Shown one piece after another: positions 29,172 to 33,097 of a stretch of 45,285 nt of DNA. This DNA is from Nitrospirota bacterium (lineage in GTDB: Bacteria > Nitrospirota > Thermodesulfovibrionia > UBA6902): assembly GCA_016222905.1 (NCBI GenBank), contig JACRPZ010000032.1:1-45285 (forward strand), in the 5' to 3' direction. Positions within the stretch are counted from its first letter, which is position 1; each line of letters begins with the position of its first letter. A program made the position numbers and the translations under genes. A model generated the notes under the pieces. The model was given only the letters and a program-made list of their open reading frames with translations, searched no databases and was not told the origin of the DNA.

Positions 29172-30938
29172 ATGAAAAAGATCGTTTCTATTTTTCTGGC
29201 TCTCTTTTTAGCATCATGCGGCAGTTATCAGTCCGCAGGCAATTCCACAACCGCTAAAAGCGGTACAGTATCAGAGACCGGCAGTCAACAGGTCCCGGCT
29301 CAGTTAATACCTAATGACACATATTTTTTTCCGAATCAATGGGGCATGCATAATACAGGGGATTACGCCTACGGCTACCCTGACAATGACATTGACGCTC
29401 CTGAGGCATGGAGCATCACTTATCCCGGAGGAAATATCCCCGAAGGAAGTAAGAATGTAGTGATAGCCGTCATTGACACAGGCATTGATTACAATCATTC
29501 CGATCTTGTCGGCAATATCTGGACTAATCTAAAAGAGCAGCTGGGCGACTACAATGATGACGGTTGCCCGGGTGTGTGCGGAGCGGATGACGATGGCGAT
29601 GGGCTAATAGATGAAGCCCTGAAGGTCCCGGGTATTCTGGCTTTCGACGATGATGAAAATGGTTATCCTGACGACATTAAAGGCTACGATTTTTACAACA
29701 CTGACAACGATCCGATGGATACTGTCGGACACGGCACGCACGTGGCAGGCATCGTCGGCGCACATGGAAATAACGGCGAAGGGGTCACCGGCGTAATGTG
29801 GAGAGTAAAACTAATGCCTTTAAAAATTTTTGATGTGGAGACAATAGCTGGTAAAGATGAGGTGATAGCAGCGAGTGACGAAAATATTGCAGAAGCCATC
29901 AGATATGCTGTTGATAATGGCGCAAAAGTAATAAATGCAAGCTGGGGAAGCCTCGAATACTACAGAAAAGTGTATGATGCAATAGATTACGCTAATACTA
30001 ATGGAGTACTCTTTGTCGCTTCTGCAGGCAACGGGAGGGAAGACGGTCTGGGAGGTATTGACTTTGTCGGAGACAACAATGATTTGTTTCCTCACTATCC
30101 TGCGAGTTTTGACCTGCCGAATATAATATCGGTCGCCGCTACGGACCAGCGCGACCAGCGGGTTCCGTTCAGCAATTATGGCCCGTTGTCAGTAGATATT
30201 GCCGCTCCCGGTGTTTATATCTGGAGCACTGTGCCTAACTGGATGAGCACTTTTCCTGACTTCGGCAGACTGGAAACTCTTGAGGGGGCATCAATGGCAG
30301 CGGCCCATGTATCAGGGCTTGCGGGACTGCTTATCGGTTATTACGACGGAGTTCAGAATACACAATTTGCTCATTATGATGTTCGCAACACTATCCTTAG
30401 ATATGTTGACTGGCTTTCGAGCCTTGACGGCTGGATCGCAACTAACGGAAGGATTAACGCATACAAAGCAGTATCCTCCCTGCTGACGCCTACCGGCCTG
30501 ACCGCCAAGGCAAACCCTTTTAAAATTCCGAACCCTTCTCTTCCTTCTGATGCCATAGCAGATTCACCAAGCATTACCCTTTCATGGGCTGACAATGCAA
30601 CAAGCTATGACAGAAGATACAAGATAGAGAGGAGATCGGACGGCAACTTTGTCGAGATAGCTAATGATATTGGACCGGACAGCACAACTTATACCGATTC
30701 CGCCGGGCTCGAACCCACGACTTCATACACGTATCGTATCAGGGTATATAACAAGATCGCAAACTCATCTTATTCTGAGGTAGCTGTGGCTGAAACGCTA
30801 TCAGATGGAGAAGGAATCCCGCATGGCGGCGGAGGATGCTCAATTACTGCCGGAAAAGATGCCGGAAGGGTTGATCTTCTCGTAATGCTCCTGCCGGTTG
30901 CGGCCATATTGACGCTGATAAAGAGGCGTAAGAGATAA
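29172..30938 (+). CDS. S8 (subtilisin-like) protease lipoprotein with Gly-Gly-Cys/TM/Arg sorting tail
   Basis: 588 residues. Lipoprotein signal MKKIVSIFLALFLASC, lipidated Cys16. The peptidase domain (about 50-430) has catalytic D102 (AVIDTGID), H187 (GHGTHVAGI), oxyanion N287 (ASAGNG) and S374 (EGASMAAAHVSG). An Asp/Gly-rich insert at 126-172 (DDDGDGLIDEA) may bind calcium. A fibronectin-type III-like domain covers about 450-545. The last 38 residues form a sorting signal: HGGGGCSI (Cys556), a hydrophobic helix and KRRKR. This is like the JDVT-CTERM class handled by a dedicated CPBP protease, and a CPBP gene follows. GGGAGGAAAGGGG precedes the ATG. It is probably extracytoplasmic and surface-exposed. 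Confidence 0.88.
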   Translation: MKKIVSIFLALFLASCGSYQSAGNSTTAKSGTVSETGSQQVPAQLIPNDTYFFPNQWGMHNTGDYAYGYPDNDIDAPEAWSITYPGGNIPEGSKNVVIAVIDTGIDYNHSDLVGNIWTNLKEQLGDYNDDGCPGVCGADDDGDGLIDEALKVPGILAFDDDENGYPDDIKGYDFYNTDNDPMDTVGHGTHVAGIVGAHGNNGEGVTGVMWRVKLMPLKIFDVETIAGKDEVIAASDENIAEAIRYAVDNGAKVINASWGSLEYYRKVYDAIDYANTNGVLFVASAGNGREDGLGGIDFVGDNNDLFPHYPASFDLPNIISVAATDQRDQRVPFSNYGPLSVDIAAPGVYIWSTVPNWMSTFPDFGRLETLEGASMAAAHVSGLAGLLIGYYDGVQNTQFAHYDVRNTILRYVDWLSSLDGWIATNGRINAYKAVSSLLTPTGLTAKANPFKIPNPSLPSDAIADSPSITLSWADNATSYDRRYKIERRSDGNFVEIANDIGPDSTTYTDSAGLEPTTSYTYRIRVYNKIANSSYSEVAVAETLSDGEGIPHGGGGCSITAGKDAGRVDLLVMLLPVAAILTLIKRRKR

Positions 30939-30956
30939 TCTATAAATTGCAAATGG

Positions 30957-30996
30957 CCGAGGGAGCAGTTACTTTCTCTGCTCCCTCGGTTTTTTT
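30957..30996 (+). terminator. intrinsic terminator after the S8 protease gene
   Basis: Twelve-base-pair stem CCGAGGGAGCAG / CTGCTCCCTCGG with a nine-base loop, then seven T. It lies only six bases before the CPBP start codon. Confidence 0.88.
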
Positions 30997-31002
30997 AATA
31001 GT

Positions 31003-31551
31003 TTGGACATTCAGAAAAAAAAGGCTTTATATTCATACATAATCTTACTTTTAACAGTATCCGCTTATCACGCCTTCTCTTTACACTTTATCAGATACCT
31101 CATCCCATTCCTTCTCATATCAGCCTCTTATGCCCTTCAGAAGATGATAAACCTGAGATTCAATGTACGGGACGCCCTTGCGGGCATTATTGCGTCTGCC
31201 GCTATTTTAGCGCCCTTTGGATACATTCTGTCGCTTACAGGAAGGTCCTTTGAGCTTATGCCATTCAACGGCCTGGTCTTTCAGCTTCTTTCTGCGTCAT
31301 TCCCTGAAGAAGTCTACTTCAGGGGCTTCCTGCAGGAGAGATTTGGCAATAATATAAGGGGAATAGTGCTGACAAGCCTTCTCTTCTCTTTGATGCACTT
31401 GCCGAGGCTTATATTTCTTGGTGATATTTATTCAGTAATGACCTTCTTTCCTTCCCTGATTATGGGATTTCTCTATATGCGCACAGGCAATATCCTGCCA
31501 TCAATAATCTTTCACTTCTCCGCGAATGTAGTGTTTCTGGGATTTTATTAA
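31003..31551 (+). CDS. CPBP-family glutamic intramembrane protease, candidate sorting enzyme for the S8 tail
   Basis: 182 residues, about five to six membrane helices. CPBP (CAAX/Abi) motifs are complete: EEVYFR (E102, E103, R107), FSLMH (H132) and HFSAN (H171, N175). Proteins of this family and size include MrtJ-type enzymes that process JDVT-CTERM-like tails. The adjacent S8 gene has such a tail, hence the assignment by context. The start is taken as TTG at 31003; there is no Shine-Dalgarno and no alternative ATG before residue 48, which would delete the first helix. Expression may depend on readthrough of the terminator just upstream. Confidence 0.75.
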   Translation: MDIQKKKALYSYIILLLTVSAYHAFSLHFIRYLIPFLLISASYALQKMINLRFNVRDALAGIIASAAILAPFGYILSLTGRSFELMPFNGLVFQLLSASFPEEVYFRGFLQERFGNNIRGIVLTSLLFSLMHLPRLIFLGDIYSVMTFFPSLIMGFLYMRTGNILPSIIFHFSANVVFLGFY

Positions 31552-31663: not shown

Positions 31664-31689
31664 TAAAGCATATCAAGGAGGTGCATAAT

Positions 31690-32499
<810 letters not shown>

Positions 32500-32683: not shown

Positions 32684-33097
32684 TTAATAAATGAGTTTCA
32701 GACATTTATCAGCGGTTAAGACTTTGAATGGAAGAGCAGGGTTGTGTTTCAGGAAGTGCCGATTCTCAGTGACGAGGGCATCAGCGCCGACCCATTCGGC
32801 ATATGCGGCAATGAAGGCATCAGCAGGTTTAAATCCTCTTGCTTCATATTTTGCGCCTAATTCAAAAGGAATAAGAAAATCTTCGTCAATTATGGTTATT
32901 TCGGAAACAAATTCAAAAAATTCCTGGAATACTTCAGGGGCTGAATTGCGTCTTACCTCAGTTACTATGGTGCGGGGTATTCGCAGTGTGTATTCCAAAG
33001 GAGAAGTTGCCAGCAGATTGATAACCGCCCTGCACGATGGTTTTTGGGTAGTTGCAAAGGCATATATGTATATGTTTGTATCAAGAATGAGCCGCAA
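32684..33097 (-). CDS. second VapC-like PIN-domain toxin
   Basis: 137 residues. N-terminal LILDTNIYIYAF with the first Asp, IPRTIVTEVRR with Glu, KPADAFIAAYAEWVGADALVTENRHF with the last acidic residues. The subfamily differs from vapC1. The start is TTG at 33097, inside the upstream small gene, with GAAGAG just before it. It sits between the two 225-bp direct repeats. Confidence 0.8.
   Translation of the reverse strand: MRLILDTNIYIYAFATTQKPSCRAVINLLATSPLEYTLRIPRTIVTEVRRNSAPEVFQEFFEFVSEITIIDEDFLIPFELGAKYEARGFKPADAFIAAYAEWVGADALVTENRHFLKHNPALPFKVLTADKCLKLIY

Follow-up and report, generated by a model that had tools for sequence, protein, structure and literature searches.

The subtilase gene and the CPBP gene that follows it in the DNA studied here most probably form a dedicated enzyme–tail pair of the Mrt (myxosortase) kind, in which a small intramembrane protease would cleave the C-terminal tail of its substrates; we give this reading, so far confined to one Nitrospirota class, a probability of roughly 0.8. 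Both genes lie in a stretch of 45,285 nucleotides from a Nitrospirota bacterium (contig JACRPZ010000032.1), hereafter called the window. That they represent a known kind of sorting pair with a narrow, conserved substrate class is well supported. Four features were observed computationally: the pairing itself, an active site and a lipobox that are both conserved, and the architecture of the tail with its invariant Cys. An unnamed Mrt-type clade that processes subtilase lipoproteins is the best explanation for them.

The Subtilase and CPBP Genes of the Window

The first gene (29172..30938, + strand) encodes an S8 subtilase lipoprotein of 588 aa, with a PF00082 domain over residues 94–410 (E 4.1e-57) and an fn3 domain (PF00041) over residues 465–538. 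By sequence and pattern, its N-terminus is a lipobox signal peptide (MKKIVSIFLALFLASC-GS), in which the lipobox LASC (29208..29219, +) supplies Cys16, followed by Gly. At the other end, a sequence read bore out the first-pass annotation, which had described a lipoprotein that finishes with HGGGGCSI, a hydrophobic helix and KRRKR. This C-terminus, HGGGGCSITAGKDAGRVDLLVMLLPVAAILTLIKRRKR, carries the putative sorting tail (30825..30935, +; alignment A3), whose Cys is residue 556. The catalytic triad motifs are present in the window protein, and the Fervidolysin-type N-terminal prodomain (PF22148) is absent from it; this prodomain is present in a paralogue on contig 60 and in the orthologues of G021 and WY4.bin7.

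The second gene (31003..31551, +) begins with TTG, 64 bases after the S8 stop codon, and encodes a CPBP glutamic-type intramembrane protease of 182 aa, the EExxxR, FxxxH and HxxxN motifs being intact, as had also been reported at first reading. The protein scored 71.7 bits against PF02517 (Rce1-like; gathering threshold 22.4, E 6.5e-20) and was the sole match to this family in the 2.84 Mb genome. The three motifs, EEVYFR (31306..31323, +; E102, E103 and R107), FSLMH (31384..31398, +; F128 and H132) and HFSAN (31513..31527, +; H171 and N175), were invariant in 43 of 43 homologues, with no variation in the catalytic residues E102, E103, R107, H132, H171 and N175. AlphaFold2 returned a confident all-helical model (pLDDT 97.0); a Foldseek search with this model against the PDB gave no match at E ≤ 0.001, and when PDB sequences were searched by profile with the CPBP protein, there was no match whatever. 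In a phylogenetic tree, the window enzyme fell within a supported clade (98/97) of 12 members, all of which adjoin their substrate. In several relatives (L071–L075), the conserved start of the CPBP frame has none of ATG, GTG and TTG nearby; translation there may begin at CTG, ATT or ATC, or within the end of the S8 gene.

Between the two genes lies a terminator-like hairpin followed by a T-run (30955..30996, +; −29.8 kcal/mol, z −5.95), with a 12–14 bp stem made of 12 GC-rich pairs and 2 wobble pairs. Because this strong terminator-like element separates the genes, they may not simply be co-transcribed, and expression of the enzyme is probably lower than that of its substrate, or separate from it. 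Downstream of the CPBP gene, a likely antitoxin and PIN-domain toxin pair (31681–32311, +) and a PIN-like gene (32684–33097, −) were recognized by eye, as were apparent type IV pilus genes in the window.

One Enzyme, Two Substrates

The initial proposal of one substrate for one enzyme did not hold. When the JDVT-CTERM model was run over the whole genome, two real tails were recovered, that of the window S8 protein and another, with a higher score, on contig 60, where it is borne by an S8 lipoprotein of 756 aa which ends in GGGGGCSITAGADAKAVDILMALIPAAAVFMAIKRRKKSISKR and has no CPBP gene adjoining. A class-wide model built from 59 tails recovered the same two and none further. Two tails and a single CPBP in the genome therefore indicate one enzyme with two substrates, and one or two substrates is also the norm in the class. 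Consequently, the two-gene neighbourhood described for MrtJ/JDVT-CTERM is present here, and its single substrate is not. Two weak JDVT-CTERM matches in the genome (C36 and C23) were discarded because each is partial and falls within an unrelated protein. The genome also has a second, unrelated C-terminal sorting system (L200:1459-3095), in which an exosortase H-like protein is encoded next to one that ends in PTMNEWG...RKYKKV.

Co-Occurrence of Tail and Enzyme in Nitrospirota

The distribution of both partners was surveyed in 396 Nitrospirota genomes by employing a tail profile and an enzyme profile, each built from 4 rows. The CPBP was detected in 43 genomes, the tail in 46 and both in 39, a coincidence with a Fisher p of 4e-42 that is uncorrected for relatedness and overstates independence, because the genomes are related. 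All 43 enzyme-positive genomes belong to the window's class, probably Thermodesulfovibrionia, and each of them carries exactly one such CPBP along with, three exceptions aside, one or two tails. Within the window's own family (37 genomes), the enzyme is present only in the window genome and in G021, both of which have the tail; the remaining members have neither the enzyme nor a real tail.

The S8 and CPBP genes adjoin in at least 26 genomes. A script identified 17 in which they are same-strand neighbours with the S8 gene first; an 18th such pair was identified in G086, where the substrate is truncated and lies 42 bp from the enzyme gene, and in 8 further genomes the two genes converge within 400 bp. 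Thus, the survey across relatives proposed in the first-pass annotation came out in favour of the pairing, and the recurrence of this pattern in dozens of genomes is more than chance. The annotation had also held that tails without a neighbouring CPBP gene in relatives would speak against such a pair. In a narrow sense these do occur, given that second substrates lie apart and several enzymes are on another contig, yet tails without any CPBP are rare: they were found in G404 (82% complete) and G363 (92% complete), while five more tail-only matches lie outside the class or are spurious. The enzyme without a detected tail was seen in G168, G304 and G324. The 4-row tail model also matched proteins of G032 and of contig 36 in G000 (L119/L120); these were discarded, being acetate-kinase-like by eye and missing the motif at the end.

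Conservation of the Tail and of the Lipobox

In the class-wide alignment, the Cys and its preceding Gly were invariant in 59 of 59 tails, partly by selection, since the pattern used to pick the tails requires Cys. By hand count, an S8 domain was present in 55 of the 59 substrates, all long enough to judge; of the other four, three are secreted proteins from a single genus, one of them with a weak Temptin_C match, and the fourth is a repeat protein in G276. A tripartite tail with an invariant Cys that co-occurs with one CPBP places the system functionally among those with myxosortase-like sorting.

The N-terminal lipobox, which had been thought unusual for such a substrate, proved to be present and conserved and, for that very reason, not unusual. 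Again by hand count, all 47 S8 substrates with an intact N-terminus outside family f14 have one (a few are looser, with LYGC, INAC or MYSC), whereas none of the five within f14 does. N-lipidation is hence not required, as the f14 substrates carry the tail without a lipobox.

A different picture was obtained for the members of the window's family that have no CPBP: by the pattern used, none of their 26 S8 proteins has a lipobox, and about 16 of the 26 end in a CFI-box tail. Lipobox, GGGGC tail and CPBP thus occur together, with shared ancestry accounting for part of the association. The S8 proteases of the CPBP-less members (L143-L170) frequently have a Gly-run and CFI-box-CTERM at the C-terminus, and up to 11 CFI-box proteins are found per genome. 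A strict swap of CFI-box for CPBP was considered and rejected: the two are mutually exclusive in the window's order, yet six genomes of the class have both.

Proposed Mechanism and the Fate of the Tail Cysteine

Since tail and enzyme both score below the cut-offs of the named families, the mechanism is carried over from relatives, and it is on this basis that we infer cleavage, lipidation of the tail Cys and the final location of the S8 protein. In Myxococcus xanthus, MrtX cleaves MYXO-CTERM tails in a Cys-dependent manner, as established by experiments that include cleavage in E. coli, and lipidation of the MYXO-CTERM Cys is a proposal, with Lgt as the leading candidate (PMC11980579). By analogy, one small CPBP per genome would serve one or two substrates, nearly always lipobox S8 subtilases. 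The substrate would be exported by Sec, diacylated by Lgt at its N-terminal Cys and relieved of its signal peptide by LspA, while the C-terminal helix would keep that end of the protein in the inner membrane, with its Arg/Lys side in the cytoplasm. The invariant tail Cys may then be lipidated, perhaps by Lgt, a step to which we assign slightly less than an even chance. Subsequently, the window CPBP would cut next to Cys556 and so remove the helix, as the analogy predicts, and the lipid-anchored protease, freed of its protein tie to the inner membrane, could reach the outer membrane or the cell surface.

It is also conceivable, if on the unlikely side, that the tail is just a tether for the protease while it folds, that the CPBP cut lets LolCDE move the N-acylated protein to the outer membrane, and that the Cys is an unlipidated recognition residue. 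With 47 of 47 intact S8 substrates outside f14 being N-terminal lipoproteins, a second anchor would not be needed. Further, their Cys is mostly followed by Gly rather than Asp; under the E. coli +2 rule, a Cys with Gly and not Asp at +2 is of the outer-membrane type. LolCE is present in the window's genome, and the gene order lolCE-lolD-CPBP is found in G204 (L009:3660-6414), where the CPBP gene overlaps lolD by 4 bp; in G324 (L114:3724-5011), this overlap is 23 bp. These overlaps hint that tail processing and lipoprotein release may be linked, but both genomes belong to genus g55 of family f7, so that the link comes from a single lineage. Moreover, the strict invariance of the Cys is more than plain cleavage should need, and it argues, together with the f14 substrates that have the tail and no lipobox, for lipidation at both ends.

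Lipidation at both ends and release for Lol are not mutually exclusive. Tentatively, and with the odds against it, the two could be combined: the substrates would be two-ended lipoproteins, modified at Cys16 via Lgt/LspA and at the C-terminal Cys, and the CPBP would be a checkpoint ensuring that Lol takes only the finished, untethered protein; in one lineage, the CPBP gene would have joined the lolCD cluster. A lipid at both ends, on a relative of the myxosortase system, is possible.

Position of the Pair among the Named Mrt Families

The first-pass annotation had assigned the pair to MrtJ/JDVT-CTERM and had suggested profile searches, in which both partners remained below the curated cut-offs. 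We placed them by curated profile scores together with a positive control. The window CPBP scored 43.9 bits against MrtJ (NF033192; cut-off 75, best of the 43 homologues E 9.5e-14), 75.8 bits against MrtS (NF040589; cut-off 130, best E 3.5e-22) and 56.7 bits against Mrt_core (NF040914; cut-off 100, best E 7.3e-20). By E-value, the nearest named families in all 43 were MrtS, Mrt_core, MrtP, MrtC, MrtJ and MrtX, none of them above its cut-off. Likewise, neither the window tail (19.2–21.5 bits) nor that of the second substrate (18.3–23.2 bits) reached the 27-bit cut-off of JDVT-CTERM (NF033191). None of the 59 tails matched Synerg-CTERM, also named for that search.

That the window's pair truly belongs to MrtJ/JDVT-CTERM and only happens to score below the cut-offs is very improbable. 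JDVT-CTERM is the best tail family for 24 of the 59 tails (best E 4e-5), the gene pair is of the kind described for MrtJ (PMC11980579), and the true pair that served as the control, from G156 in another Nitrospirota class, likewise has an S8 substrate. In that control, however, a CPBP of 199 aa scored 106.8 bits to MrtJ and the S8 protein whose gene it overlaps scored 36.1 bits to JDVT-CTERM; the models are thus able to recognize such pairs in Nitrospirota, and the window's system, which fails where the control passes, lies beside MrtJ/JDVT-CTERM. In addition, MrtJ gives the window enzyme a lower score than either MrtS or Mrt_core does, even the best of the 43 stays well short of 75 bits to MrtJ, and two substrates per genome are common in the window's class. 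The enzyme gene overlaps the substrate gene in the G156 pair (L117:474-4143), and a similar pair is present in G247 (L116). That the two genes are unrelated neighbours, with a GGGGC tail that is a plain membrane anchor and a CPBP whose role is in general turnover or bacteriocin immunity, is scarcely credible: a strong terminator splits the genes in the window, and many genomes encode the supposed substrate away from the enzyme, but the presence and absence of tail and CPBP coincide across the phylum, and the substrate set is limited to one or two tails where there is exactly one such CPBP.

Comparison with Known Systems

Under the preferred reading, a dedicated pair with tail cleavage, the Cys-tail CPBP sorting enzymes gain an unnamed clade that spans the class. 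Its substrate set, one or two proteins, is about as small as can be, which makes enzyme specificity cleanly testable; and since these substrates have a lipid signal at the N-terminus to begin with, anchoring and release from the inner membrane, which are tangled in myxobacteria, become separable. Which enzyme lipidates the tail Cys, with Lgt as the leading candidate (PMC11980579), likewise becomes a directly testable question in the window's system.

Among known systems, CFI-box-CTERM (NF041770) shares a Gly-run and then a Cys near the C-terminus of an S8 protease, in those members of the window's family that have no CPBP. It differs in its CFI motif, CFIATAAYGS, and in that no lipobox was seen there; it was not found in the window's genome. 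MrtJ/JDVT-CTERM also has a CPBP beside a Cys-tail substrate, a tail of Gly-rich Cys motif, helix and Arg cluster and, in its Nitrospirota examples, S8 substrates. In contrast, the present pair misses both cut-offs, has two substrates that are N-terminal lipoproteins and has a distinct motif (CSIGxRQN... for the majority of the class). MrtS of the MrtS/Synerg-CTERM system is the top enzyme family for the window CPBP, over most of its length, and is matched by 43 of 43 homologues, but its cut-off is missed, no tail matches Synerg-CTERM, and MrtS comes from a different phylum. Finally, with MrtX/MYXO-CTERM of M. xanthus, our system shares an intramembrane CPBP and a tail with an invariant Cys, whose removal was demonstrated experimentally there (PMC11980579) and is predicted here. 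The enzyme is below the MrtX cut-off, and where MrtX handles dozens of varied substrates with a T2SS dependence, the enzyme described here would serve one or two lipobox subtilases.
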